This document shows, piece by piece, positions 2 to 32,040 of a stretch of DNA of 32,269 nucleotides. Under the pieces are notes generated by a model. The model saw only the letters and a list, made by a program, of their open reading frames with translations. It was not told the DNA's origin and searched no databases. The DNA lies in the NCBI GenBank assembly GCA_015484845.1, contig WFUT01000162.1, positions 1 to 32,269 of the forward strand. The letters are read 5' to 3'. The position numbers and the translations under genes were made by a program. Source of the stretch: Desulfobulbaceae bacterium (GTDB taxonomy: Bacteria; Desulfobacterota; Desulfobulbia; Desulfobulbales; Desulfobulbaceae). Position 1 is the stretch's first letter. Each line of letters opens with the position of its first letter.

Positions 2-3000
2 GCGCAGGCCGAGAATGCGGGTCCGTCAACCTTTACCCTCACCTCCAGCGCGACGGTCGAGCCGTCTGCCAACCTGACGGTCTCCTACCGGGCAGCCAGC
101 GAGGTCGGTGACACGGCGACAGCCGGCAGTGACTACGTCTCCACCAGCAGCAGCGTTCCCTTTACGGGCACCAGTGGAGTGATCAGCGTCCCCCTCATCG
201 ACGACAGCAACGTGGAGGGGAACGAGACCTTCACCGTGACCCTGACTGGTGCAAGTGATTCCGATGTGACGGCCAGCGCCAGTGCCCGGGCCACCATAAC
301 CGATGATGATACGGCATCGCTTTCCATCGATGATGTCACTGTCTCCGAAGGAGATGGCACGGTGCAGTTTACGGTGAGTTCCGATCGGTACATCGAGAGC
401 AGTGCAACGGTAACCGTTGATTTTGCCACCCAGGACGACACCGCCGTTGCCGGGGAGGATTACACTGCCACCACTGGAAACCTTGCCATCAGTGATGGTG
501 ACCGGACCACATTTACGGTCCCCATTCTCGAAGACAGCCCTGCCATTGTCGAGGGAGATGAGACCTTCAACGTTCTTCTGAGCAATACGAGTGCCAACGC
601 CGGCATTGCCGACGGCACAGGAACAGCCACCATCACCGATAACGACGTTCCAGACATAAGCATCAGCGATGCAGCCGCCGTGGCAGAGGGTAATGGCACC
701 GACACCCCTGTCTCTTTTCTTGTGAGCAGTTCCTTGCCTGTGGCTACCAATGCGAGCCTCACTGTTACCTATGCTGTTTCCGCCGGCAAAACGGAGGCGG
801 ATGATTTCTCGGGTTCCACATCCGGGACTGTCACCATCAGCAACGGTTCCACGGCCACGATACCCTTGACCTATGTTGGTGATCGGATTGTGGAAACCGA
901 CGAACACTATACTGTCGAACTCAGCAATCCCGTTATCTCTTCCAGCAGCGTTGTCCCTGTCCTCCTGGATCCATCGGGAAGTGGCGTCATTCTGAATGAT
1001 GACAGTCCCCGGTTGACCATCGACGATGTTGCCAAGTCCGAAGGAGACAGTGGAACCACCACCATGACCTTCACTGTCACCAGTGACCTTCAGGTTGCCT
1101 CGGATGCCGCAGTGAATTTTGATTACGCTGTCAATGCTGTCGATACGGAGCCAGGGGACCTGAGCGGCACGCTGGCCGGATCCGTGACCCTGAGCGGTGG
1201 CAACACGGCGCAGATAGCGGTTGATGTGGCCGGCGATGTCACTGTCGAGCCCGACGAGACCTATACCGTTGATATCAGCAACCCCACCATCCCTTCAAGT
1301 ACTGCCGGCGCATCGATCGTCGACAGCTCCGGCCTGGGCACCATCCTCAACGACGACAGTTATACCGTGTCCATAGATGCCACCCTCAAATCGGCCCTTG
1401 AAGACATGGGGCCCCTTGTCTGGACCGTTACCTTGAGCAATCCCGTAGAGTGGCAGGTCGAGGTGCCATATACCTTCAATGCCGGCTCCGCGGATACTGC
1501 TCTCGAGGGTTCCGACTATACGGATGCGGCTTCTTCTCCCCTGGTTTTTGCACCCGGTACGACCTCGCAGGATATAACGATCAACCTCGTCAACGATACG
1601 GTCATCGAGCCCGACGAGACCTTTACCATTACATTGGATACGCCCAGTCCCGCCACATCCGGATCTCTCGGCAACCGGGTGGGAACAGGCGAGATACTCA
1701 ATGATGAACACCTGATCACCATGAGTGCGGGCTCGCAGGGTACCCTGTCCACCGCGTACGGTGGCGGTGCATCCATCTCCGACGGCACGACCACCGTGCA
1801 GGTGGATCATGAGGCAACCCCTGCCTTTGATGTCGCAATTACAGACACCTGTTTCCACATTGACGATCTCTCGGTTGACGGCGTCTCCCAGGGAGCCGTT
1901 TCCAGTTACACCTTTGCGCCAGTGACCACTGATCACAGTATAAGTGTGGATTTTGCCCGTAATACCTATACCATTACCGCCACTGTCCTTGGATCGCACG
2001 GTACCCTTACCCCGACCCAGACGGTCCCTTGCGGGAGTAGTGGTTATGCCTATATCGCCCAGGCCGAGTCCGGCTACCATATCTCGTGGCTGAAGGTCAA
2101 CGGTGCCGATGTCCCGGCCGCAGCCGGACAGGAGAGCTATACCTATACCTTCGGCACCATTACCTCGGACCAGACCATCGAGGTCGCCTATACCCAGTTG
2201 ATCACGGTAACGGAGGATTCGCCCTTTGGTGATATAACACCTGCCGCGGGCAAGGTTCCCATCGAGGTGAATTACGGCGATAACCTGACCTTTGATATAA
2301 CCGCCGCCTCGTCATGTCCCAACGGGCTTGGTCACGACGGCCAGGTCCACCATATTTCCGATGTCATTGTGGATGGCGCTTCCGTCCCCGGGGTAAAGGG
2401 GAGTGGCTTGACCACCTACAGCTATACTTTCAGCAATATAACCTCTGATCACAGCATCGAGGCCCTGTTCACCGCCTATATCGATATGACAGTGAACGGT
2501 AACGGCAGCACGGATCCCCTGGGGGTCACAACCACTGGCTCGCTGGAGGTTGATGCCCATGACAGTCCGACCATTACCGCGGTTCCGGACCCTGGCTTTC
2601 ATGTCTCTGCAGTGGAGATTGACGGAACGCCGGTGGGGCAGCCGGAGAGCTACACGTTCAGCGACATGTACGATGAAGACCATACCTACGAGGTCTGGTT
2701 CAGTATTGATACCTTTACCCTGAAGCCTGTTTCCAGGTTCGGCACCGTGTACGATACCGCAGCCCAGTCCGTGGTGGCAACGGACCGGGAAGTCTCCTAC
2801 CACGACACCAGCTCCTTTTACGTGGACCTGGACGACCCGGATCATTCGGTCATGGGTATCCTGATCGACAATATCTCCTATCCGATCCCTGCAGCCGGTG
2901 ACACGGTCACCTATCCTGCCTTCACCCTTATCAACAATGCAGATGATTATCTCGAGGTCAGGTTCACCAACGTCGAGGTCGGACACCGGCTTGAGGTTCA

Positions 3001-6000
3001 GGACTATGATACAAGCCCCATATCTGATGTCCCCCTTGATGCCAGGTTACGCCCGAAACCCGCGTCCCTGATGTTCGTTCTCGATGATTCGGGCAGTATG
3101 GACTGGGAATTCATCGTGCCGGGCAATGGGTTGTTCAATGGGAGGTATTATGTCTACAGCTATCCTTCCGTAGATGCGGCACGGGTGTATTCAAACAACA
3201 GTATCCAGGCCAATAGAGAACAGGATGAGTGGCGGTCCCAGTGGGCCGGGGTCAACAAGATGTTTTACAATCCTGACGTTGAGTATGTCCCCTGGCCGAC
3301 ATTTACCGGAACGCCCAGCTCAAACCTGCCGGCGGCGGACAGCTCCATCGCCGGGCAGGCCGATGGCCAGGCCCATGCCAATATCTACCGGCCGCGGTAT
3401 CATCCCTGGCACAGCCAGGACTGCACCGAGGCCCTGAACAAGGCCCTGGGCAAGACGCCGGATAACCTGGCCAACTGCAGCAACACTGAAACCTTTGATA
3501 TGGACGGTACCTTTCTTTCCCTGGACGGCGCAAGTGATGACCATGGCAATACCATCGGTACCGCGACCCCGGTCAGCCTGAATAACAGTTACACCGCTGA
3601 TCTGGAGACAGCGGGCGATCACGATGTGTTCAGGATCGAGCTCACCAGCCCCGGAGACCTCCTGGTGCGGACCCTGCGTACCTCAGAGTGTACCGACACA
3701 GAGGCCAGGATCCTTGATTCGTCGGGCAACACCTACAGGTATTCGGATTATGCTCCCTACAACCAGTACCTGGACAACCCCTATGCGGACGACTGCGGGT
3801 CTGATTCCCGGTGTGACCTGAGTTGCGGTCGCGACCAGGACCCCTACATCTTCCTGACCAATGTTCCCGCTGGCACCTACTACATCGATGTTCGTGGTTA
3901 CGGCAACAGAACCGGTACCTATATCCTTGACCTGGCCTTCACCGGCAGCAGCAATACATTTCCGAACCCGCCGCCACCCTCGAAGGGAATCATCAATGCC
4001 CATTATTTTACCTGGGAGGATGTCAACGGGAATGGTGTTATTGACTTCGTGGACAGCAACCACAACGGCCAGCTGGACGTCAATGAGACAGTGAACGAAA
4101 ATATCTGGCTGGTCAACCTGACCGACCCCATCGAGTATTACCGGGTTCTTGACAACAGCCAGAACGTGAGCGCGGCAAATCTTCAGCGCGTGGATGCGGC
4201 CTCGGTTCCCGCAACGGTGAAGACCTTTGCCTCGCCCACGGATCCGGACGCCTGGCGAAAGGAACGGCAGAACTGGGCCGACTGGTTCTCTTACTATCGC
4301 AAGAGGATTTATTCCGCCACCGCCGCTGTGGCCCGGGTAATCGCACGGATGGAAGATATCGAGGTCGGCTACCGGACCATCAACTACCGAAACGGTGGCT
4401 ATGAAAATGGCGGCTACGGGTTCAGCCAGTCCGTGCTGCCGGTCAAGGTTTCGGGTGTCGGCGATCAGACCAATCGCCTGCTCGAGATCCTCTATGATTT
4501 CCAGATTGGTCAAAAAGGCACGCCGTTACGTAACGGCCTCAACGCCGTGGGCCAGTATTATGACGACACCGATGGCGGTGCGGACGGCGGCATTGGCACC
4601 TCTCCCTTCCATGCCCGGGAGGATGGTGACGAGTGCAAGCAGGCTTTCACCATTGTCATGACCGACGGTTACTGGAACGGTGACAGTCCGGGCGTCGGCA
4701 ACGCCGACGGTGACAATGGCGCACCCTATGCCGATGGCTTCAGCAATACGCTGGCCGATGTCGCCATGCACTATTTTGAAAAAGATCTTTCGACCTTGGA
4801 TGACCTGGTTCCTGACGGCACCAACACCCACCAGCACATGATAACCTATACCGTGGCCTTCGGGGTCAACGGGACCTTGAACCCGGACGACTATGATTTC
4901 AAAAACGGTGTCTATCCCGACTGGCCCAATCCGACCTCCAGCGATGAGGCCCGTGTCGATGATCTCTGGCATGCGGCGGTCAACGGTCACGGCAAGTACA
5001 TGAACGCGGCCCGGCCTGATGAACTGGTTGCCTCGCTGCTGGATATCATGACCGATATCGGCAGTCGCATCGGCTCGGGAGCGTCGGTCTCTGTCAACGG
5101 CGACGAGATGTATGAAAACGTCAACGGCCAGGTCCGCATGTTCCAGACCACCTACAACTCCGGCGACTGGCATGGTGACCTGAGGGCCTACCAGCTGAAC
5201 ACCACCACCGGCGAGGTACTCAAGAACAGTCCTGTCTGGTCGGCGGAGGAGAAGCTGCGTAACCTGCTCATGACGAGCGGTCCCGACGCCCGGATCATCG
5301 CCACCTATGACGGCCACAAGGGTGTACCATTCCGCTGGCTGGACGGCTATGGCAATCCGTACCTGGCGGCATGGCAGCAGAAGATGCTGCAACCCTACTT
5401 TGCCCAGTCGCTGACAGCTGAAGACATGTTGAACTATCTCCGCGGCGATGCCAGCAATGAGGGAAGCCTCAGGGGGCGGGACCCGCAGCATCCACTGGGT
5501 GATTTCGTCCATTCCCAGGCCCGCTTTGAAGATGGCATCCTTTACGTGGGCGGCAACGATGGTATGCTGCATGCCTTCTCGGCCACCGATGCGAACGGAG
5601 GCGAGGAGCTCTTCGCCTACGTGCCTGGCCTGGTATACCAGAACCTGCGGGAGCTCGGTGATCCGCTCTATGGTCACAAGTTCTATGTGGACAACACTCC
5701 CTATACAAAGAAGATCGGCGATACAACGCTGCTGGTCGGCGGCCTCGGCAAGGGTGGCAAGGGGTATTATTGCCTTAATATCACCGACGCCGGTTCCATC
5801 AGCAGTGAGGCGGACCTGGCCTCCCGTGTCCTGTGGGAATACCCGGCCCCTCCGGCCACCCTGGTGTCCGGAACCACCTTCACCTTCTCCAGTGGTACCG
5901 GCACCAACGGCGCCGACGAGATCAGGGACAGCGCCCACGGTTTCACTGCTGCCAATGGTTTCGAGGTCGGCAGATGGATCACGGTCATCGGCGCCAATTA

Positions 6001-7759
6001 CAACGATGGCAGCAACTCCGGCAGTAATGACGGCACGTACCGGATCAAGGCCGTGGCCGGGGATGGCAGTGCCATCGAGCTTGAGGCCGGCAGCCTGATC
6101 AATGGCTACGGTGACGGCGAGGATATCACCATTACAGCGGCAACCAGTGACCGTGACATGGGATATTCCTTCAGCAAGGCCTATATCGTGAAAACATACG
6201 ACTCCACCATCAATGCCGGCACAGATCTGGAGGGATACGTGGTCATCTTCGGCAATGGCTATTCCAGCGAAAACGGAAACGCTGTTCTCTATATTCTCAA
6301 TCCCCTGGATGGCAGTGTGATCAAAAAGATCAAGACCCGTGTCGGGCCGTTCAATGGCCTGTCGACTCCCAAGATCGTTGACGTGAACAATGATCTGAAG
6401 GCTGATTATGTCTATGCCGGCGATCTGCTCGGTAACATGTGGAAGTTCGATCTCACCAGCAGCGACCACGCAGACTGGCAGGTCGCCTTCTGTGACAATG
6501 CCAGCCCGACCGATCACTGCAAGGACACCGACGACCTGGATGACACCGATGATCCGGTCCCTTCGTTCACCGCCGAACCCCTGTTCGGCGGCCTGGCCAA
6601 CCAGGCCATCACCGGGGCCCCGGATGTCATGTTCCACCGCGGTGGTCCGGGGTACATGGTAATCTTTGGTACTGGTAAATATATTGGCGAGCCGGATCTC
6701 ACCAATTTTGCGGTGCAGTCCCTCTATGGCATATGGGACTGGGCCCCGGACAACACGGATGACGGATATAATGGTGTCCGGGTGGATACGGTGACAACCC
6801 CGTCCGTGGCTACCCTGTCCAACTGGCCGGAAACCGATACCAGTGGAGGCCAGGCGACCCATACCCTGTTGAAACAGGTCATCCGGGTCGAGGGCGTGAT
6901 AACCGAGGATACGGACGGAGACGGTCATCTGGATGTCGACGAGGATCTTAACAAGAATGGTGTCCTTGATCCTGGTGAGGATGTGGACGGAGATGGCCGC
7001 CTGGATGTGGAAGAGGATTCCAACGGGAACAAGGAGATCGATACTTATTCCTACTATCGTATACCTTCCAACTACAAGGGCGACTGGGACACCATTGCGA
7101 CAAAGGATCTGCCCCCGGGCCACCGTTTTTACAACCGGGATCTCAACGGTGACGGCTCTGTCGACGATCATGACAGGATTCCGGTGGCCAACGTGGGGTG
7201 GTACTTTGACCTGCCCGGTAAGCTCGATCTGGTGGGTGACGGGCAGGACAATGACAAGGACGGTCTTGTCGATGAAGATGATAATGGCGACGATATCATT
7301 GATGAGCGTATGCCGGGCGAGCGGGTGGTCAGTGATACCATTATCCGCGATGGCAAGGCGATCATGATCTCCTTTGGTGTCACCGGCACCCGGTGTAATG
7401 CCGGCGCCTACTCCTTTGTCAATGAACGTGACCCGGACACCGGTGGCATGCTGGAACAGCCCGCCTTTGATGTCGATGGTGACGGCGAGGTCAATGGCAA
7501 TGATGCCTACTATATTCGGGTCAACGAGGATGTGAATGGAGACGGGAAAATTGACGATAACGATGTTGTCCGTGGTGTGCCGACGGACAAGTCATACGAG
7601 GGGCGGCTCCATAACCCGGCTATCCTGCGTGAGAGCACGCAGTCAGGAGACGATCACCCGGAAGAGACCAAGTACTTCAGTTCTTCTGGCGGAACCATCG
7701 AGACCCTGACTGAACGGGCGGAGCGTCGAGGTGTCTATTTCTGGCAGCAGGTGGAGTAG
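2..7759 (+). CDS. PilY1-like type IV pilus tip adhesin, 5' partial
   Basis: The reading frame is open to the left edge, so the true start is outside; about 2585 residues are visible. In order: five Calx-beta repeats (about 2-1710), each ending in a (D/N)D(D/N) turn; five repeats of about 80 residues resembling InlB-B-type bacterial repeats (about 1711-2960); a von Willebrand A-type region opening with a DDSGS MIDAS motif at 3083-3097; the YNPDVEYVPWP segment typical of PilY1; a pre-peptidase C-terminal (PPC)-like domain at about 3580-3950; a Ca-loop segment at 4018-4090; the rest of the vWA fold (WADWFSYYR, then FTIVMTDGYW near 4650); and the PilY1 beta-propeller from about 5490, with a DVNNDLKAD calcium loop at 6380. 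Further DxDGDG loops fall at about 6910-7050, 7140-7310 and 7470-7570. PilY1 proteins cap or prime type IV pili and bind surfaces in a Ca-dependent way. Minor pilin genes would be expected to the left. Confidence 0.93.
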   Translation, partial: AQAENAGPSTFTLTSSATVEPSANLTVSYRAASEVGDTATAGSDYVSTSSSVPFTGTSGVISVPLIDDSNVEGNETFTVTLTGASDSDVTASASARATITDDDTASLSIDDVTVSEGDGTVQFTVSSDRYIESSATVTVDFATQDDTAVAGEDYTATTGNLAISDGDRTTFTVPILEDSPAIVEGDETFNVLLSNTSANAGIADGTGTATITDNDVPDISISDAAAVAEGNGTDTPVSFLVSSSLPVATNASLTVTYAVSAGKTEADDFSGSTSGTVTISNGSTATIPLTYVGDRIVETDEHYTVELSNPVISSSSVVPVLLDPSGSGVILNDDSPRLTIDDVAKSEGDSGTTTMTFTVTSDLQVASDAAVNFDYAVNAVDTEPGDLSGTLAGSVTLSGGNTAQIAVDVAGDVTVEPDETYTVDISNPTIPSSTAGASIVDSSGLGTILNDDSYTVSIDATLKSALEDMGPLVWTVTLSNPVEWQVEVPYTFNAGSADTALEGSDYTDAASSPLVFAPGTTSQDITINLVNDTVIEPDETFTITLDTPSPATSGSLGNRVGTGEILNDEHLITMSAGSQGTLSTAYGGGASISDGTTTVQVDHEATPAFDVAITDTCFHIDDLSVDGVSQGAVSSYTFAPVTTDHSISVDFARNTYTITATVLGSHGTLTPTQTVPCGSSGYAYIAQAESGYHISWLKVNGADVPAAAGQESYTYTFGTITSDQTIEVAYTQLITVTEDSPFGDITPAAGKVPIEVNYGDNLTFDITAASSCPNGLGHDGQVHHISDVIVDGASVPGVKGSGLTTYSYTFSNITSDHSIEALFTAYIDMTVNGNGSTDPLGVTTTGSLEVDAHDSPTITAVPDPGFHVSAVEIDGTPVGQPESYTFSDMYDEDHTYEVWFSIDTFTLKPVSRFGTVYDTAAQSVVATDREVSYHDTSSFYVDLDDPDHSVMGILIDNISYPIPAAGDTVTYPAFTLINNADDYLEVRFTNVEVGHRLEVQDYDTSPISDVPLDARLRPKPASLMFVLDDSGSMDWEFIVPGNGLFNGRYYVYSYPSVDAARVYSNNSIQANREQDEWRSQWAGVNKMFYNPDVEYVPWPTFTGTPSSNLPAADSSIAGQADGQAHANIYRPRYHPWHSQDCTEALNKALGKTPDNLANCSNTETFDMDGTFLSLDGASDDHGNTIGTATPVSLNNSYTADLETAGDHDVFRIELTSPGDLLVRTLRTSECTDTEARILDSSGNTYRYSDYAPYNQYLDNPYADDCGSDSRCDLSCGRDQDPYIFLTNVPAGTYYIDVRGYGNRTGTYILDLAFTGSSNTFPNPPPPSKGIINAHYFTWEDVNGNGVIDFVDSNHNGQLDVNETVNENIWLVNLTDPIEYYRVLDNSQNVSAANLQRVDAASVPATVKTFASPTDPDAWRKERQNWADWFSYYRKRIYSATAAVARVIARMEDIEVGYRTINYRNGGYENGGYGFSQSVLPVKVSGVGDQTNRLLEILYDFQIGQKGTPLRNGLNAVGQYYDDTDGGADGGIGTSPFHAREDGDECKQAFTIVMTDGYWNGDSPGVGNADGDNGAPYADGFSNTLADVAMHYFEKDLSTLDDLVPDGTNTHQHMITYTVAFGVNGTLNPDDYDFKNGVYPDWPNPTSSDEARVDDLWHAAVNGHGKYMNAARPDELVASLLDIMTDIGSRIGSGASVSVNGDEMYENVNGQVRMFQTTYNSGDWHGDLRAYQLNTTTGEVLKNSPVWSAEEKLRNLLMTSGPDARIIATYDGHKGVPFRWLDGYGNPYLAAWQQKMLQPYFAQSLTAEDMLNYLRGDASNEGSLRGRDPQHPLGDFVHSQARFEDGILYVGGNDGMLHAFSATDANGGEELFAYVPGLVYQNLRELGDPLYGHKFYVDNTPYTKKIGDTTLLVGGLGKGGKGYYCLNITDAGSISSEADLASRVLWEYPAPPATLVSGTTFTFSSGTGTNGADEIRDSAHGFTAANGFEVGRWITVIGANYNDGSNSGSNDGTYRIKAVAGDGSAIELEAGSLINGYGDGEDITITAATSDRDMGYSFSKAYIVKTYDSTINAGTDLEGYVVIFGNGYSSENGNAVLYILNPLDGSVIKKIKTRVGPFNGLSTPKIVDVNNDLKADYVYAGDLLGNMWKFDLTSSDHADWQVAFCDNASPTDHCKDTDDLDDTDDPVPSFTAEPLFGGLANQAITGAPDVMFHRGGPGYMVIFGTGKYIGEPDLTNFAVQSLYGIWDWAPDNTDDGYNGVRVDTVTTPSVATLSNWPETDTSGGQATHTLLKQVIRVEGVITEDTDGDGHLDVDEDLNKNGVLDPGEDVDGDGRLDVEEDSNGNKEIDTYSYYRIPSNYKGDWDTIATKDLPPGHRFYNRDLNGDGSVDDHDRIPVANVGWYFDLPGKLDLVGDGQDNDKDGLVDEDDNGDDIIDERMPGERVVSDTIIRDGKAIMISFGVTGTRCNAGAYSFVNERDPDTGGMLEQPAFDVDGDGEVNGNDAYYIRVNEDVNGDGKIDDNDVVRGVPTDKSYEGRLHNPAILRESTQSGDDHPEETKYFSSSGGTIETLTERAERRGVYFWQQVE

Positions 7760-23977: not shown

Positions 23978-24262
23978 ATGGCACGTATCACCGTAGAAGA
24001 CTGTCTGGCCAGGATTGGTGACGACAACCGTTTTGCCCTGGTGCACCTGGCCGTTGAAAGGATACGGCAGCACCGCAACGGCGAACCCTTCCTGGTGGAG
24101 GGAAAGAACAAGGAGATCGTCATGACCCTGCGCGAGATTGCCGCCGGCAAGGTCAGTTTTGACAACATCTTTGATCTGCCTGAACAGCGAAGGGCGCAGC
24201 TGGAGGCCGAGGCCGCTGCGGCAACAGAGACTGAACCCGAGAACGGAGAAGAGGCGGCGTAG
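23978..24262 (+). CDS. rpoZ: RNA polymerase omega subunit
   Basis: A protein of 94 residues beginning MARITVEDCLARIGDDNRFALVHL, the conserved omega N-terminus that contacts the beta-prime subunit. The middle part keeps the EIVMTLREIAAGKVSFD segment, and the tail is acidic and Ala/Glu-rich. Omega helps fold and assemble RNA polymerase and, together with DksA and ppGpp, takes part in the stringent response. GGAGAG lies nine bases before the ATG. It heads a run of five closely spaced genes that also includes dksA. Confidence 0.95.
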   Translation: MARITVEDCLARIGDDNRFALVHLAVERIRQHRNGEPFLVEGKNKEIVMTLREIAAGKVSFDNIFDLPEQRRAQLEAEAAAATETEPENGEEAA

Positions 24263-24283: not shown

Positions 24284-25432
24284 ATGAGTACCGTGACAAA
24301 GTGCTATTACGAGATACTGGGTGTTTCGCGTGATGCCAGCGGCGAGACCATCAAGAAGGCCTACCGCAAGCTGGCCATGAAGTACCATCCGGACCGCAAC
24401 CCGGACGACCCCGAGGCCGAGGCCCTGTTCAAGGAGGCTGCCGAGGCCTACGAGGTCCTAAGCGACGAGCGCAAGCGGCAGATCTACGATACCTACGGCC
24501 ACGAGGGACTGAAGAACAACGGCTACAGCGGTCCTGCCAGCAGCGAGGATATCTTTTCCCACATCAATGACCTGTTCGGCGATCTCTTCGGCTTTGGAGG
24601 CCGCGGTCGCCGGCACGACCCCAATGCGCCCATCCAGGGGGACGACCTGCGCTACGATATCGAGATCAGCTTCATGGAGGCGGTGCAGGGTGTGACCCGC
24701 GAGGTGGAGATCACCAAGCGGGAGACCTGCTGGACCTGCGAGGGCACGGGCGCCCGGCCCGGCTACCGGCCGCAGACCTGCCCCACCTGCCACGGCCGGG
24801 GCCAGGTGATCCGCTCGCAGGGTTTCTTCCAGGTCAGTTCCACCTGTCCCCAGTGCCACGGGAGCGGCCAGGTCATCTCGGATCCCTGCCAGGACTGTGA
24901 CGGCACCGGCCTGGTCAACCGCCGCAAGACAGTGAGCATCAGGATCCCGGCCGGTGTGGACACCGGTTCCCGGATGCGGCTTTCCGGGGAAGGGGAGGGC
25001 GGTCGCCGCGGCGGCCGTTCCGGTGATCTCTACGTGGTCATCCATGTGCGGCCGCACGAGTTTTTCCAGCGCGACGGCCAGACCATCTTCCTCCGCTATC
25101 CCCTCTCCATGGTCCGGGCCGCCCTGGGCTGCGAGGTGGATGTGCCGACCATCGAAGGGACGGCGAAACTGAAGATCCCGGCCGGGACCCAGTCGGGCGA
25201 ACGGTTCACCCTGCGTGGCGAAGGCGTGCCGAGCCTGCGCGGCGGCGGCCGTGGCGACATGATCGTCGAGATCCAGGTCCAGACCCCGACCAGGCTGAGC
25301 AAGCGGCAGAAGGAACTGTTGCAGGAGTTCGAGGAGCTGACCGGCGAAGAGGAGGAAGGTTTCTTTGCCAGGCTCTTTCATGGTCACCTGGGCAAGCATA
25401 AGAAAAAAGACGAGAGCCGGGACGACCACTGA
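24284..25432 (+). CDS. dnaJ: chaperone DnaJ
   Basis: A protein of 382 residues. J domain at about 7-72 with the HPD tripeptide at 35-37, which stimulates DnaK ATP hydrolysis. A short Gly/Phe segment lies near 98-110. The zinc-finger region has four CxxCxGxG motifs (C149/C152, C166/C169, C188/C191, C202/C205), so it is a full type I DnaJ. The C-terminal substrate-binding domain follows. It starts 21 bases after rpoZ, and its stop overlaps the moaC start by one base (TGATG). dnaK and grpE are not in the window. Confidence 0.97.
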
Positions 25433-25920
25433 TGTCGGACGGGTTCACCCATTTCGACGGCCAGGGCAACGCCAGGATGGTGGATGTCGGCGGCAAGTCC
25501 GAGACTGTCCGCCAGGCCACCGCCGCCGGCCGGATATCCATGTCGCCGGAGGCCTTTGCCATGGTCCGGCAGGGGACCATGAAGAAGGGGGATGTTCTCG
25601 GTGTGGCCAGGATCGGCGCCATCATGGCCGCCAAGAAGGTGGACGACCTGATCCCGCTCTGTCATCCGCTGGCCATCACCTCCGTGGACGTGGGGTTCTC
25701 GTTTGTTGAAGAATTCCATGCCATTGATATCAGGGCCACCGTGGGAATCACCGGCAGGACCGGTGTGGAGATGGAGGCGCTCACCGCTGTTTCCGTCGCC
25801 GCCCTGACCATCTACGACATGTGCAAGGCCGTTGACAAGGGGATGGTGATCTCGGACATCCGGTTGCTTGAGAAAAGTGGCGGCAAGAGCGGTGACTTTA
25901 CCAGATCCCCCGGACCATAG
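25432..25920 (+). CDS. moaC: cyclic pyranopterin monophosphate synthase MoaC
   Basis: A protein of 162 residues, typical for MoaC. With MoaA it turns GTP into cyclic pyranopterin monophosphate, the first step of molybdenum and tungsten cofactor synthesis. Diagnostic segments are [34 protein letters not shown] and the C-terminal [20 protein letters not shown]. The start shares a base with the dnaJ stop. The radical SAM gene near 17.5 kb is not an obvious MoaA, so the partner is probably elsewhere. Cofactor enzymes such as formate dehydrogenase would be Tat substrates. Confidence 0.96.
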
Positions 25921-25939: not shown

Positions 25940-26302
25940 ATGGACGAAAAGCAACTGCTGCAGTTGAAGGAACAGCTCGAGCAGATGAAGGCTGATATCT
26001 ACGCCGACGTGGAACAGACCCTGAGCGAGATGACCAACCAGAGCGGCAATATTCCCGATCCCAACGATCGGGCCAGCATGGAATCCGACCGGAGCTTTGA
26101 GCTGCGTCTGCGCGGCAGGGAGCGCAAGCTCATGGACAAGATCAACGAGGCCCTCCTGCGGATCAAGGAGGGCACCTATGGCATCTGTGACGGCTGTGGC
26201 GAGGAGATAGGTGTCAAGCGGCTGCAGGCCCGGCCGGTGGCCAAGTTCTGTATCGACTGCAAGACCAGGCAGGAACAGAAGGAAAAGGAACAGGGGCGAT
26301 AG
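25940..26302 (+). CDS. DksA/TraR-type zinc-finger transcription factor
   Basis: A protein of 120 residues. An N-terminal coiled coil spans about 1-75 and contains DPNDRA at 40-45, which fits the DxxDxA tip motif that DksA uses inside the RNA polymerase secondary channel. The zinc finger is C83/C86 and C104/C107 (CDGC, CIDC). The length is between E. coli DksA (151) and TraR (73), common in deltaproteobacterial DksA-like proteins. It starts 19 bases after moaC and ends six bases before the next gene. Being co-transcribed with rpoZ is notable because omega and DksA both serve ppGpp-dependent control. Confidence 0.93.
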   Translation: MDEKQLLQLKEQLEQMKADIYADVEQTLSEMTNQSGNIPDPNDRASMESDRSFELRLRGRERKLMDKINEALLRIKEGTYGICDGCGEEIGVKRLQARPVAKFCIDCKTRQEQKEKEQGR

Positions 26303-26308
26303 AACGCC

Positions 26309-27310
26309 ATGCCTGAATTACGGAAGGATCCGATCCTCGGGCGCTGGATCATCATCGCCAAGGAGCGGAGCAAGCGGCCAACGGACTTTGTTGTCGATGA
26401 CGTCAAGACCAGGGGTGGGTTCTGCCCCCTCTGCCCGGGCAACGAAAAGACGACCCCGGGCGAGGTCCTGGTCTATGGCCGGGAGCCCGGCATGCCGGCA
26501 AATTCGTCGAGCTGGAAACTGCGGGTGGTGCCCAACAAGTACCCGGCCCTGGTCATCGAGGGAGAGCTGGACAAGCAGGCCGAGGGTCTCTACGACCGTA
26601 TGAACGGTATTGGCGCGCACGAGGTCGTTATCGAGAGTCCCAACCATGACGACCGGTTCTCGGACCTGCCCCACGACCAGATGATCCTGACCTTTCGCGC
26701 CTTTCGCGACAGGATCCGCGACCTGGCCAAGGACAGCCGCTTTCGCTACGTGATGGTCTTCAAGAACCATGGCCGCGCCGCCGGCGCCTCGCTGGAGCAT
26801 TCCCATTCGCAGCTGGTCGCCCTGCCCATACTGCCCCGGATGGTGACCTCGGAGCTGGATGGCAGTCTCAAGTATTTCAGGTACAAGGACCGGTGTGTCT
26901 TCTGCGACATCATCCACCAGGAGATCCAGCAGAACGTGCGCCTGGTCTGCGAGAATTCACTTTTTGTCACCCTGGCCCCCTTTGCGCCGCGTTCCCCCTT
27001 CGAGATGTGGATCATGCCGCGGCGGCACAGTTCCTCCTATGTCGCCATCGACGAGGAGACCCTGGCCGGGCTGACCGATATCTTTTCGGAGAGCCTGCGG
27101 CGGCTGGATACCTGCATTCCCAATGTGCCGTACAACTTTGTTCTGCATACCCAGCCCCTGGGATCCGAACTGCTTGACCACTATCACTGGCATTTCGAGA
27201 TTGTCCCGAAGCTGACCAGTATTGCCGGTTTTGAATGGGGATCCGGATTCTACATCAACCCCATGCCCCCGGAAGAGGCGTGCCGGTACCTGCGCGAGGT
27301 TGAGCTGTAG
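26309..27310 (+). CDS. galT: galactose-1-phosphate uridylyltransferase family protein
   Basis: A protein of 333 residues of the HIT superfamily. The N-terminus (RKDPILGRWIIIAKER), the first zinc cysteines CPLCPGNE, the active-site LEHSHSQL with the HxHxQ pattern, and the later HYHWHFEIVPKL are as in GalT. The family exchanges hexose-1-phosphate and UMP between UDP-glucose and galactose-1-phosphate. Some members prefer ADP-glucose or other sugars, so the exact substrate is uncertain. It begins six bases after dksA and closes the rpoZ-dnaJ-moaC-dksA-galT run. Confidence 0.9.
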   Translation: MPELRKDPILGRWIIIAKERSKRPTDFVVDDVKTRGGFCPLCPGNEKTTPGEVLVYGREPGMPANSSSWKLRVVPNKYPALVIEGELDKQAEGLYDRMNGIGAHEVVIESPNHDDRFSDLPHDQMILTFRAFRDRIRDLAKDSRFRYVMVFKNHGRAAGASLEHSHSQLVALPILPRMVTSELDGSLKYFRYKDRCVFCDIIHQEIQQNVRLVCENSLFVTLAPFAPRSPFEMWIMPRRHSSSYVAIDEETLAGLTDIFSESLRRLDTCIPNVPYNFVLHTQPLGSELLDHYHWHFEIVPKLTSIAGFEWGSGFYINPMPPEEACRYLREVEL

Positions 27311-27396: not shown

Positions 27397-27753
27397 ATGG
27401 ATAAGAAACGCATACTGCTGGTGGATGACGAGGACGGTATTCAACTGCTCTACCGCGAGGAGTTCGAGGACGAGGGCTTTGCCGTTGATTCGGCCTACAA
27501 TGGCGAGGAGGCCCTGGAGAAGTTCCGGGAACGGCAGCCGGACCTGGTGATCCTGGATATCAACATGCCCGGCATGAACGGTATCGAGGTCCTGCGGCAG
27601 ATGAAGGAGATCAACCCCGACCTTCCCGTGATCCTCAGCTCGGCCTACCAGGAATACAAGCAGGATTTCGGTACCTGGGCCTCGGAGGAGTATATCGTCA
27701 AGTCCGCCAACCTTGATGAACTGAAGGCCGCGGTGCACAAGTACCTGGACTGA
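27397..27753 (+). CDS. stand-alone response-regulator receiver protein
   Basis: A protein of 118 residues consisting of one receiver domain. The acid pocket is D10/D11, the phosphorylation site is D54 (VILDINMPG), the switch residue is S82 and the conserved lysine is K102, so it should be phosphorylated. There is no output domain, so it probably acts by protein contact, as CheY or Spo0F do. A strong AAGGGGGG precedes the ATG. No histidine kinase is in the window. A gap of 86 bases separates it from galT. Confidence 0.92.
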   Translation: MDKKRILLVDDEDGIQLLYREEFEDEGFAVDSAYNGEEALEKFRERQPDLVILDINMPGMNGIEVLRQMKEINPDLPVILSSAYQEYKQDFGTWASEEYIVKSANLDELKAAVHKYLD

Positions 27754-27988: not shown

Positions 27989-28717
27989 ATGAAAGATATC
28001 CAGAGCCTGCGCGATGACCGGCGTATCAATATCAGGAAGGTCGGCGTCAAGACGATCTCCTATCCCGTCACCGTGCTGGACAGGGAGCACAAGACGCAGC
28101 AGACGGTTGCCACCGTCAACATGTATGTCAACCTGCCACACCGGTTCAAGGGCACGCACATGAGCCGGTTCGTTGATATCCTTAACCGTTTTCACGGCCG
28201 GTTCAACCTGCGCAGTTTCCACCTGATCCTGGAAGAGATGAAAGAGCGGCTGGAGGCCGAGGCCGCCCATCTCGAGATCGGGTTTCCCTATTTCCTGCAG
28301 AAGGACGCCGGGGCCGGCAGCATCGGCCTGGAGCGCTACGAATGCACGATGCACGGTTCCCTGCAGGACCGCGATGACCTTGTCCTGGCCATCGAGGTGC
28401 CCATCTCCCTGCCCCGCGGCCGGGAGAGCGCCGAGGGGATGCCCCGCTCCATGGGCAGGTGGGGCAACGTGCAGGTGGCGGTGCGGTTCAACCATTTCAT
28501 CTGGATCGAGGACTTGATCGCGATTATCGAGGATGGCCTGGGCCTCGGCGCCCGGCTGCCGGATTCGGTGGAGTCGGTATGCTGCCGGCTGGGCGAGGTC
28601 CTGGCCGGAAATCCCGCCATTCGCTGGTACAACGTGATCGTCGAAAACCTGGCCGACGGCTATTCAACCTTTGCATCGCTGCAGGGGCCGGAGGGCGGCG
28701 CGCAGGCGGGTTCGTGA
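27989..28717 (+). CDS. FolE2-like GTP cyclohydrolase homologue, catalytic residues apparently lost
   Basis: A protein of 242 residues of the FolE2/MptA (COG1469) family. The N-terminal DIQSLRDDRRINIRKVGVKTISYPV, TVATVNMYVNLPHRFKGTHMSRF and VDILN regions are well kept. Active FolE2 enzymes carry a CPCSK motif followed by GAHNQR in the segment after the central strand; here that place reads ISLPRGRESAEGMPRSMGRWGN (about 139-160), with no Cys or His. The C-terminal ENxxSxHxH segment is also changed (ENLADGYSTFAS). Thus the metal ligands appear missing. The frame is continuous, so this is not an obvious frameshift. It may bind GTP-like ligands or partners without canonical catalysis. It precedes glyS by 138 bases. 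Confidence 0.82.
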   Translation: MKDIQSLRDDRRINIRKVGVKTISYPVTVLDREHKTQQTVATVNMYVNLPHRFKGTHMSRFVDILNRFHGRFNLRSFHLILEEMKERLEAEAAHLEIGFPYFLQKDAGAGSIGLERYECTMHGSLQDRDDLVLAIEVPISLPRGRESAEGMPRSMGRWGNVQVAVRFNHFIWIEDLIAIIEDGLGLGARLPDSVESVCCRLGEVLAGNPAIRWYNVIVENLADGYSTFASLQGPEGGAQAGS

Positions 28718-28855: not shown

Positions 28856-30931
28856 ATGAGCGAATTACTTTTCGAGATCGGAACCGAGGAGATCCCGGCC
28901 GGCTATATCCGGCCCGCGCTCCGCTTCCTGGAAACGGCCTCGGCCGCGCGCTTCAAGGAACTGGAGCTGCGGCATGGCCGCCTGACCACTGTCGGCACGC
29001 CCCGGCGCCTGACCCTGGTGGTGGAGGATCTCCAGGACAGGCAGCCGGACCGGTGCCTGGAGCACATCGGGCCGCCGAAAAAAGCCGGTTTCGATGCCGA
29101 GGGCAACCCGACAAAGGCTGCCATGGGATTTGCCCGTTCGCGAGGGGTTGATGTCTCGGACCTGCAGGTAGTGACCACGGACAAGGGAGAATACCTGATG
29201 GCCGTGGAAGAGGTCCGGGGCCGGGGAACCGGCGAGCTGCTGCCAGGGATCCTGGCCGACCTGGTCCGGGAGATGCCCTTTCCCAAGTCCATGCGCTGGG
29301 GTGATTCCACCCTGGCCTTTGCCCGGCCCATCCAGTGGTTGCTGGCTCTCTATGGCGGCAAGGTGGTGGAGCTCGAGATCGAGGACGTGAAAAGCGGCAA
29401 CAGCACGCGCGGACACCGTTTCATGGCACCGGAATCATTTCCGGTGGCGGATTTTGCCGACTATGTGGTCAGGCTCGGCGAGCACTCGGTGATTGTTGAT
29501 CCCAACCAGCGGCGGCAGATGGTGATCCAGGAGGTGGAAGAGGCGGTGCGGCGGCGCGCCGGTCAGTCCGGCGCCAGGCCGGTCCTGCACGAGGGGCTGC
29601 TCGATACGGTCACCAACCTGGTCGAGCTTCCGTCCGGCGTCTGCGGCACCTTTGACGAGAAATTCCTCGAGCTGCCCGACGAGGCCCTGATCACCTCCAT
29701 GCGCGAACACCAGAAGTACTTTTCAGTGGTGGACGGCGACGGCAACCTGCTGCCGCTCTTTGTCGCGGTCAACAACACCAGGATCGAGGACACGGAGCTG
29801 GCAGCCAGCGGCCATGAACGGGTGCTGCGGGCCCGGCTTGAAGACGGGCTTTTCTTCTTCCACGAGGACCGGAAACAGCGGCTGGCCGATCGCCTGGAGG
29901 ACCTGGAGGGGATCATTTTCCAGGCCCGGCTCGGTACCATGGCGGCCAAGAGCCGGCGGATCGCCGAACTTGCCGCCGAGCTCGCCGAGCGGCTGAAGCC
30001 CGGGATCAAGGACCTGGTGGTGCGGGCGGCTCTGCTTGCCAAGGCTGACCTGCTCACCGAGATGGTGGGAGAGTTCCCTTCCCTGCAGGGCATCATGGGC
30101 CGCGAGTATGCCCTGCTCGATGGCGAACCCGAGGCCGTGGCCGTGGCCATCTACGAACATTACCTGCCGGTGCGGGCCGGCGACGCCCTGCCGCAGACCC
30201 TGGCCGGGGCCATTGTCGGCCTCGCCGACCGCATGGATACCCTGGTCGGCTGTTTTGCCATCGGTGAAAAACCCACCGGCACCAAGGATTCCTTTGGCCT
30301 GCGGCGGCAGGCCATCGGCCTGATCAATATCATCCGCGGCCTGAACCTCTCCCTGTCCCTGCGGGAGCTGATCACTGCCGCCATGGCCGGCTACCGGGGT
30401 GTGGTGGACGTGGCTGACGGGGTCCGCCAGGAACTGCTCGACTTCATCCGGCTCCGGTTCGCCAATGAGCTGACTGCAGGCGGTGTGGCCCAGGATGTGG
30501 TCGAGGCCGTTATCTCGGTGGCGTTCGATGACATTACCGACTGCATGGCCAGGATCAGGGCCCTGGAGGATATCAGGCGCCAGGAGAAGTTTGCCGTTCT
30601 TGCCGGCTCCTTCAAGCGGATCCGGAACATCACCCGGGAGAACACCTCCACTGCCGTGGACACCGGCCTGTTGCGGGAAGACGCGGAAAAGGCCCTTTAT
30701 GAGACCCTGGCGCGGGTCAGGGAGCAGGCCGAGCCCCTTCTCGAGGCGCGCGACTATGGCCGGGCCCTGGAGGTCATGCTGCAGATGAAGGAACCTGTGG
30801 ACTTATTTTTTGACCAGGTGATGGTCATGGACGAGGATGCCGGTGTGCGCGCGAACCGGCTCAATCTCCTGACCGCCCTCGGCAGGCTGGTTCTGCGGGT
30901 GGGGGATATCTCGCGCATGCACAGGGGATGA
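28856..30931 (+). CDS. glyS: glycine-tRNA ligase beta subunit
   Basis: A protein of 691 residues, usual for the beta chain of the alpha2-beta2 glycyl-tRNA synthetase. The opening LLFEIGTEEIPAGYI and the internal FPKSMRWGDSTLAFARPIQWL and ALITSMREHQKYFSV segments are characteristic. The C-terminal half has the HD-like and DALR anticodon-binding regions. AAAGGA precedes the ATG at 28856; an earlier in-frame start at 28787 has no support. The partner gene glyQ, often just upstream, is not adjacent here; a FolE2-like gene takes that position. A strong terminator follows. Confidence 0.96.
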   Translation: MSELLFEIGTEEIPAGYIRPALRFLETASAARFKELELRHGRLTTVGTPRRLTLVVEDLQDRQPDRCLEHIGPPKKAGFDAEGNPTKAAMGFARSRGVDVSDLQVVTTDKGEYLMAVEEVRGRGTGELLPGILADLVREMPFPKSMRWGDSTLAFARPIQWLLALYGGKVVELEIEDVKSGNSTRGHRFMAPESFPVADFADYVVRLGEHSVIVDPNQRRQMVIQEVEEAVRRRAGQSGARPVLHEGLLDTVTNLVELPSGVCGTFDEKFLELPDEALITSMREHQKYFSVVDGDGNLLPLFVAVNNTRIEDTELAASGHERVLRARLEDGLFFFHEDRKQRLADRLEDLEGIIFQARLGTMAAKSRRIAELAAELAERLKPGIKDLVVRAALLAKADLLTEMVGEFPSLQGIMGREYALLDGEPEAVAVAIYEHYLPVRAGDALPQTLAGAIVGLADRMDTLVGCFAIGEKPTGTKDSFGLRRQAIGLINIIRGLNLSLSLRELITAAMAGYRGVVDVADGVRQELLDFIRLRFANELTAGGVAQDVVEAVISVAFDDITDCMARIRALEDIRRQEKFAVLAGSFKRIRNITRENTSTAVDTGLLREDAEKALYETLARVREQAEPLLEARDYGRALEVMLQMKEPVDLFFDQVMVMDEDAGVRANRLNLLTALGRLVLRVGDISRMHRG

Positions 30932-31138: not shown

Positions 31139-31531
31139 TTATTTTTTCAGACCCTTCTTGTGGCAGGTGCTACACATGGTCAGCTTCCTGTCGGTCTCCC
31201 TGTGACAGCCCTTGCACTTCTTGTGGGCGACATCTTTCAGGCTGGTCAGGCCCTTGGGCATACCATCGTTCTTGTTGTGGCAGGTCTCGCATTTCTGGAT
31301 CTTCATGCCCTTGGTGTAGGGGACCTGTTTGCCGTCCGGTCCCTTGGAGTGGTGGCAGACACCGCATTGCAGCCGTGCCTGGTGGTCGGCATGGGGGAAG
31401 AGGGCCGGCTTAAAGCCCTTGCCCCCCAGGATAATCTCCGCCGGTCCCTTGTCCTGGGCCATGGAGAGCGCGGCCAGGCCTGTGGTGCAGAGAAACGCCA
31501 AGGCTACGCTACAGATCAGCGTCTTTTTCAT
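31139..31531 (-). CDS. tetraheme cytochrome c3 (class III), periplasmic
   Basis: A protein of 130 residues with a signal peptide (about 1-25) and a mature part of about 105 residues, the usual cytochrome c3 size. Four heme-binding motifs are visible: CGVCH at 56-60, CETCH at 81-85, CKGCH at 106-110 and CSTCH at 120-124. Four extra histidines (H47, H50, H61, H103) can serve as the second axial ligands, giving bis-histidine hemes. All four sites are CxxCH, whereas some Desulfovibrio c3 sites have four residues between cysteines. Cytochrome c3 carries electrons between periplasmic hydrogenases or formate dehydrogenases and membrane complexes. AAGGAG lies eight bases before the ATG. Confidence 0.94.
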   Translation of the reverse strand: MKKTLICSVALAFLCTTGLAALSMAQDKGPAEIILGGKGFKPALFPHADHQARLQCGVCHHSKGPDGKQVPYTKGMKIQKCETCHNKNDGMPKGLTSLKDVAHKKCKGCHRETDRKLTMCSTCHKKGLKK

Positions 31532-31583
31532 CGTGGGTCTCCTTTGTCTACGTTTGGTAAGCGTCCTCACCAGTAACTGATCA

Positions 31584-31607
31584 CAGGGTGAGCTTCGCTT
31601 CACCCTG
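31584..31607. promoter_or_regulatory. hairpin in the cytochrome c3 leader
   Basis: CAGGGTGA (31584-31591) pairs with TCACCCTG (31600-31607), with possible further pairing in the GCTTCGCT loop. It is 53 bases upstream of the cytochrome c3 start on the minus strand, where an attenuator, operator or RNA-stability element would fit. Confidence 0.4.
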
Positions 31608-32040
31608 CCAGCCCGGTCCGCCCGGGTTCAGGCTGCTGCTCTTTGCCGGAACTCTCCATGGGAGCAGGTCACAACCCGGCCTGCCTGCAGCCAGCAGCCC
31701 CGGCGGAGCGGCAGTTATCCTTCCGCCAGCGCTTTTCCGCCACCTCCGGGCAGTACAAGCCGCAAGGCTCGAAAGTACCGTCCATGTCAGGCGAAAGCCG
31801 TCCCCGGATCCCGCCTGTACCATGGATGTCGGAACTCGCTGCCAACATGCCCAAGATCACCCCGGACATACGCTCCAGGCCGGTGGAGGAAACCATATCC
31901 ACGATTATAACCATGTACAACCACGAAGAGAAGGCACCGGGCCGCGATTTCGGCACCGGGCGTGCGGGAGGGGAGGGGAAAGGAAAAAACAACACCGACC
32001 GACGGACACCCGGTACCTTGATCCAGGAGTCCGCCGGTCT

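Follow-up and report, generated by a model that had tools for sequence, protein, structure and literature searches.

A FolE2 paralogue stripped of its catalytic motifs in a Desulfobulbaceae bacterium, a probable subunit of a heteromeric GTP cyclohydrolase IB

The locus analysed here raises the question of what a FolE2 homologue without the catalytic motifs of its family does for the bacteria that keep it. The gene lies at 27989..28717 on the forward strand of the window, the whole 32,269-nucleotide stretch of DNA under analysis, and its product is referred to below as deg (P0001; assigned by ORF, PF02649, clade, and dN/dS). The reading frame starts with ATG, contains zero internal stops, and encodes 242 aa. 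The PF02649 (GCHY-1) profile matched deg with an E value of 3.6e-39 and 135.3 bits (cut-off 25), which places it in the family by sequence; the match covered only residues 1-182 of deg and positions 1-194 of the 260 in the profile. The NCBIfam FolE2 equivalog model returned 111.8 bits for deg versus the 215 needed. Residues 3-67 also matched the model of MptA, GTP cyclohydrolase IV (TIGR00294, NF010204; E 1.3e-10 for TIGR00294), but the score was 40.9 bits against a cut-off of 220, and the C-terminal catalytic part was absent.

By sequence, the closest solved relatives of deg were the FolE2 structures 2r5r, 8g6c, and 3d2o, over approximately the first 180 residues. A Foldseek search with an AlphaFold2 model of deg (pLDDT 81.0, pTM 0.79) disclosed FolE2s as the top PDB matches, spanning 236-252 alignment columns with a TM score of 0.76, followed by urate oxidases. 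This full-length match of the model argues that deg is a complete FolE2 homologue with two T-fold domains, and that its predicted second domain has been stripped of its catalytic motifs. The same two-domain T-fold is that of FolE2/GTP cyclohydrolase IB (COG1469, PF02649; 2r5r, 8g6c, 3d2o, 5k95), with which deg has the N-terminal half and the FKGTHMSRF motif in common. In seven homologue pairs, dN/dS ranged from 0.035 to 0.18, with values of 0.007-0.064 for the N-terminal part where measurable. The frame is therefore under purifying selection, in agreement with the preliminary description of this DNA, which had called it intact and the protein maintained.

Alignment revealed which elements of the family were preserved. 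The conserved N-terminus MKDIQ..DxRxIxIxKV (residues 1-18; 27989..28042, + strand) is present in deg and mostly missing from a partner FolE2, canonC, described below; D9 and R11 appeared in 43/43 deg homologues and in 0/21 canonC proteins. FKGTHMSRF (residues 53-61; 28145..28171, + strand), comprising the loop before helix 1 and the start of that helix in T-fold domain 1, is the FolE2 signature that the first half of deg had been said to keep. Further along the chain, the beta5-beta6 loop (residues 141-159; 28409..28465, + strand) reads LPRGRESAEGMPRSMGRWG at the site of CPCSK..GAHNQR in complete FolE2s, so that a new pattern ending in SxGxWG replaces CPCSK and GAHNQR; Gly156 and Trp158 of this pattern were found in 42/43 homologues. 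Glu195 (28571..28573, + strand), the Glu of the FVED/FVE(D) motif, is retained by both paralogues and is conserved in 98% of the 43 deg homologues. Towards the C-terminus, VENLADGYSTFA (residues 218-229; 28640..28675, + strand) stands where AENFESIHNHSAYA was expected, and ENFESIHNHSAYA of complete FolE2s has become ENLADGYSTFA in deg. The ESIHxH region has thus been replaced, and the C-terminal block is altered as first described. Within this region, Asn220 is conserved in 98% of deg sequences, and the position is Ser in 100% of canonC sequences.

The LKRPDEKxVTE segment, which presumably carries the metal-ligand Glu of FolE2, is missing from deg, the DEKxVTE stretch being gapped in most of the 43 homologues. 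We take CPC, GAHNQR, DEKxVTE, and ESIHxH to represent the metal ligands and the catalytic Cys/His of FolE2. CPCSK, GAHNQR, LKRPDEKxVTE, and ESIHxH were gone from all 43 aligned deg homologues. Among the best 80 of 293 confirmed loci from named species, KGTHMSRF was preserved in 80/80 and CPC/HNQ/IHxH in 0/80, which upholds the original claim of a FolE2 homologue without CPCSK, GAHNQR, and the catalytic Cys/His they hold. Relocated ligand residues, named in the preliminary description as evidence that would count against it, were not found in deg in an alignment with 20 complete FolE2s. Four residues, Gly156, Trp158, Gly224, and Phe228, are newly fixed in deg. In descent and in fold, deg is homologous to FolE2, but it lacks the catalytic features of the family; deg alone should therefore not be annotated as the GTP cyclohydrolase FolE2.

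How widely this protein is kept was evident from its distribution. Deg homologues scoring better than 1e-50 with deg as the query, some of them fragments at contig ends, were detected in 237/257 genomes of its class, which we take to be Desulfobulbia. Among 297 genomes across the phylum, full-length deg matches were confined to this Desulfobulbales-type class; outside it, genomes as a rule carried one FolE2, with approximately 50% identity to deg residues 1-183. The C-terminal half of the deg clade (14 rows) was used to scan the genomes of 84,980 named species, and in the best 80 of the 293 confirmed matches the titles that named a taxon gave Desulfobulbaceae, Desulfocapsa, Desulfobulbus, Electrothrix, Desulfurivibrio, or Desulfobia, or else a broader Desulfobacteraceae, Deltaproteobacteria, Proteobacteria, or uncultured label. 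In the tree, the 43 deg and 21 canonC sequences each formed one clade (100/100 each), with the root and the order of duplication left unfixed. A distinct clade sharing the same loss, as the preliminary description envisaged, does exist: deg with its 43 homologues is monophyletic.

Deg is located in a conserved block. In the window, by inspection and all on the + strand, this block comprises rpoZ (23978-24262), dnaJ (24284-25432), moaC (25432-25920), dksA (25940-26302), galT (26309-27310), a single-domain response regulator directly upstream of deg (27397..27753; also by inspection in 39/39 class loci), deg itself, and, downstream, glyS for glycyl-tRNA synthetase beta (28856..30931). The order and strand were the same in 39/39 class loci, a count in which the gene names come from inspection and some genes of a few loci fall beyond the stretch read. 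GlyS was present in 36/39 loci and was not found within the stretch available in the other 3. The stand-alone response regulator before deg was as constant as the rest of the block. The outgroup FolE2 lay in such a block in 0/16 loci. Genome context was considered as a clue to function and set aside, as the block consists of unrelated housekeeping genes and does not contain the outgroup FolE2; it names no partner. Elsewhere in the window, inspection revealed a very long, repeat-rich open frame resembling a surface protein, which runs off the window start (2-7756, + strand, 2585 codons), and a small multihaem cytochrome-like ORF with several CxxCH motifs downstream of glyS (31142-31627, - strand).

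Does the genome hold a normal folE or folE2, as the preliminary description asked? The answer is divided: FolE (PF01227) was not detected, and a second FolE2 is present that has the catalytic motifs and is without the N-terminus and FKGTHMSRF. Only two PF02649 proteins occur in the window's genome (G000), deg and this second protein, canonC, encoded on contig C171 (9277-10023, - strand). CanonC carries CPCSK, GAHNQR, LKRPDEK, and ESIHKH and scored 233.5 bits with the NCBIfam FolE2 equivalog model, above the cut-off of 215; on this score, canonC may be active without deg. Its N-terminus and FKGTHMSRF, both invariant in complete FolE2s, are missing. Among 34 canonC proteins, including the 21 aligned earlier, CPC, GAHNQR, and SIHxH were present in 34/34 and KGTH in 0/34. 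The equivalent of His57 is Cys45 in 20/21 canonC sequences, and the newly fixed residues of canonC are Cys45 and Ser226. Foldseek TM scores of canonC to FolE2 structures were 0.85-0.88, and both deg and canonC are predicted to fold as full-length FolE2s. The two genes are not adjacent in the genome; in most loci canonC adjoins purH and a gene for an S4-domain protein, purH not being a neighbour in every genome. Type IA FolE (PF01227) was detected in 0/57 genomes, the window's own included, and the same search matched 11/14 control genomes. The window's genome encodes HPPK for folate and QueC for queuosine, and it should therefore need the product of GTP cyclohydrolase I.

To compare the losses of the two paralogues, we aligned 43 deg and 21 canonC sequences with complete FolE2s, 16 from the phylum and 4 from a genus designated g9. 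Sites shared by at least 90% of these 20 complete FolE2s were scored as conserved, which gave 96 sites. Of these, 41 were lost in deg and 21 in canonC, but only 2 in both, with 9.0 expected if the losses were independent. The hypergeometric p for this complementarity was 3e-4, and nine threshold settings gave p values of 2e-5 to 0.04; as conserved sites lie in clusters along the chain, these values overstate independence and serve as a guide only. The sites lost from canonC map to the N-terminal tail, to strands 1 and 2, and to the loop and helix 1, plus single sites in helices 2 and 4 and in strand 7. Those lost from deg fall mainly in the beta5-beta6 and helix 3-4 loops, in strand 6 and helix 4, and in the beta7-beta8 turn. 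Both motif sets were present in the complete single-copy FolE2s (16 outgroup genomes of the phylum and 4 g9 genomes). No second case of reciprocal loss was found in G423 and G286, two outgroup genomes in which the extra FolE2 copy is only a fragment. In G423 (L241), the fragment is a 112-aa FolE2 piece near a contig feature and beside the complete copy; in G286 (L242), it is a 50-codon FolE2 piece with stops, likewise beside the complete copy.

This reciprocal loss is conserved, and the two paralogues co-occur almost universally. Both deg and canonC were present in all 17 class genomes of at most five contigs. The genus g9 lacks both: in four genomes (L102-L105, L208-L211), the block is present through the response regulator and is followed by neither deg nor glyS, and none of the g9 genomes has canonC. 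A complete FolE2 on a long branch was found in 4/5 g9 genomes, probably acquired by transfer; G097, which is 69% complete, shows none. The joint absence of deg and canonC in g9 counts as one event. In the same genus, glyS has been moved or lost from its place after the response regulator.

The exceptions to co-occurrence were examined in a quality set of 148 genomes with completeness of 90% or more and contamination of 5% or less; 3 of these genomes belong to g9. CanonC occurred without a full deg in 2/148, namely G031, with a 25-aa deg piece, and G254, in which the contig stops inside galT. Deg occurred without a detected canonC in 6/148 (G041, G045, G049, G068, G238, and G249). PurH, beside which canonC usually lies, is missing from G041 and G238 as well. 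The contigs of G045 and G068 stop at most 0.3 kb from the S4 gene, and in G239 a contig end is likewise too near to judge. CanonC was not seen at its usual place beyond the S4 gene in G049 and G249, where more than 0.8 kb of sequence is present; it may be elsewhere, lost, or unassembled. Since canonC is not always beside purH, it could lie in an assembly gap elsewhere. Once contig ends and purH were checked, these genomes gave a mixed picture and were not accepted as a clean refutation of the pairing of deg with canonC.

A third, MptA-like FolE2 was detected in 58/257 class genomes (E <1e-70), in 7/21 genomes of any completeness without canonC, and in four of the six deg-only genomes of the quality set (G045, G049, G068, and G238). 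Its sequences (L231-L234, L243, L244) matched TIGR00294 best, at 125-144 bits and under the cut-off of 220, and their motifs, GIHMSR, CPCTQ, THSQR, and SIHIHD, make them complete in both motif sets. In the loci read, genes named by inspection lie close to it, for an HD/polyA-polymerase-like protein, a family 2 glycosyltransferase, and a QueC-like ATP pyrophosphatase; together they may form a small cluster concerned with pterins or deazapurines. Deg keeps KGTHMSRF in the deg-only genomes that carry this third protein, which is not what a strict partner model would predict. It is chiefly this retention of FKGTHMSRF where canonC may be gone that speaks against a strict two-partner model; the deg-only genomes may reflect a recent loss of canonC, or a second partner or role for deg.

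Covariation of evolutionary rates was evaluated on 55 branches, using the 29 of 34 genomes with all genes and five control genes. Given the control genes, branch rates of deg and canonC were correlated with a partial r of 0.53 (Spearman 0.45, p 5e-4). A correlation of deg with glyS was present before canonC was included and fell to r 0.14 once it was; some unrelated pairs, for example dnaJ and glyS, correlate as strongly without such correction. The covariation of deg and canonC is supportive of a partnership and is not decisive, because deg-glyS and unrelated pairs also covary.

The architecture of the family suggests how one site could be divided in this way. The type IB enzyme is described as a homotetramer with its active sites at the interfaces of three adjacent subunits and with all motifs in one chain (PMC6718149); here, in contrast, the motifs are divided between two paralogues. 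Type IB enzymes are reported to maintain a phosphate-binding basic patch, although the subunits that supply it differ from those in type I (PMC4790348). With each FolE2 active site drawing on more than a single subunit, one gene copy could lose one part of it and the other copy the opposite part. Urate oxidase, described as a two-domain T-fold homotetramer of the same fold class (PMC8199477, PMC7792999), offers a structural guide only, as it is a homomer with no metal and a different reaction. Its site is described as formed by helix 4 and the beta5-beta6 loop of one subunit together with beta1 and helix 1 of the other (PMC8199477), and its Thr57 and Asn254, which hold the catalytic water, as sitting on different protomers (PMC7792999). 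Read by this analogy, the split between deg and canonC matches the subunit division of urate oxidase, and homology points to a FKGTHMSRF loop of FolE2 supplied by the neighbouring chain.

We propose that deg is probably one subunit of a heteromeric GTP cyclohydrolase IB whose composite active site is shared with canonC, an arrangement that would resemble the 'prozyme' enzymes of trypanosomes. CanonC has lost exactly what deg keeps, and this, together with their co-occurrence and joint absence from g9, argues for deg and canonC as complementary subunits of one enzyme. The two would go back to a duplication, around the base of the class, of an ancestral gene for a homo-oligomeric FolE2. Deg would have retained Asn220 together with the N-terminal tail, helix 1, and the FKGTHMSRF loop before it, and canonC the metal site, the catalytic Cys/His (CPCSK, GAHNQR), LKRPDEKxVTE, and ESIHxH. 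The T-fold domain 1 face of deg would meet the domain 2 face of canonC in one working composite site, in which K54, H57, R60, and R11 of deg may bind the GTP triphosphate or place it over the metal site of canonC. The reciprocal pairing would be dead, residues being gone from both of its faces. Because these faces carry newly fixed residues, the dead site may have taken on a structural or regulatory function. We infer a physical complex of deg and canonC, its stoichiometry, and a lack of proper activity in either subunit alone. A stronger form can be put forward tentatively and with low confidence: an obligate heteromer in which the single paralogues are inactive, each dimer has one catalytic site, and the dead site, with SxGxWG of deg against the [ST]C loop of canonC, both newly fixed, is a regulatory ligand pocket. 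No report of a heteromeric FolE2, or of FolE2 joined with Desulfobulb-, was found in the literature searched.

The co-occurrence, co-loss, and rate data would fit equally well if deg were an allosteric prozyme that binds and activates or stabilises canonC, its FKGTHMSRF loop not completing the site in trans. There is a precedent in the deoxyhypusine synthase of trypanosomatids, an enzyme unrelated in reaction and fold: a homotetrameric ancestor with interface sites is described as having given rise to an impaired and a dead paralogue in a 2:2 heterotetramer, for which allosteric activation was proposed, the dead paralogue of the trypanosome enzyme bringing a 3000-fold gain in activity (PMC3663545). 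The hallmark of such a system, a conserved dead paralogue co-occurring with an impaired-looking one, is found here, with exceptions among drafts. Unlike in deoxyhypusine synthase, motifs have been lost reciprocally from both subunits of the deg/canonC pair, whose complex is inferred. We regard allosteric activation as unlikely, as it leaves unexplained both the retention of KGTHMSRF in deg (80/80 in the best 80 of 293) with its loss from canonC, and the partition along the two faces of the two-domain T-fold interface.

The preliminary description had favoured another role for deg, as a regulator, ligand binder, or new enzyme. Deg would then stand alone, and canonC would be a complete enzyme that tolerates the loss of FKGTHMSRF. 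This would suit the newly fixed Gly156, Trp158, Gly224, and Phe228, the retention of Glu195 and of elements of the pterin-fold pocket, the position of deg among unrelated housekeeping genes and a response regulator in an operon that is itself conserved, and its persistence without canonC in some drafts; canonC, for its part, has newly fixed Cys45 in place of His57 (20/21). However, the two paralogues complement each other in the sites they have lost and kept, both genes vanish in g9, and a canonC acting by itself would do so without residues that never vary among 20 complete FolE2s. A separate role is therefore not the best reading, given the complementary loss in canonC, the co-occurrence, and g9, and we consider it quite improbable.

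The third, MptA-like FolE2 raises the possibility that deg pairs with another T-fold protein and not with canonC, a suggestion that draws on the four of six deg-only genomes (at least 90% complete) in which it occurs. This is very unlikely, as 199/257 genomes, the window's own included, are without a strong match to the third protein, which is itself complete in both motif sets. Displacement of a native copy by a foreign FolE2 had been suggested by outgroup FolE2s that are nearer to deg over residues 1-183 than canonC is; it was dropped, as canonC is also 44-50% identical to the outgroup and each copy lost a different part. That deg is a decaying pseudogene, for which the loss of catalytic motifs and nothing else speaks, is ruled out for practical purposes by the intact frame, the low dN/dS (0.035-0.18; 0.007-0.064 for the N-terminal part), and the presence of deg in 237/257 genomes.

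If deg and canonC do share one active site, this environmentally important class of sulfate reducers, sulfur disproportionators, and cable bacteria would need a two-gene enzyme to begin the synthesis of folate and queuosine. Current annotation would then misread the pair, canonC being named 'FolE2' as though complete and deg falling below the FolE2 cut-off. An Escherichia coli folE mutant would be rescued by both genes together, and either alone would be expected to fail. The genus g9, with both paralogues lost and a complete enzyme present, would be a natural control. The FKGTHMSRF loop would gain a role, acting in trans on the metal site of the neighbouring subunit, and bacteria would offer, in this pair, a clear example of one active site partitioned between paralogous subunits that are kept class-wide.
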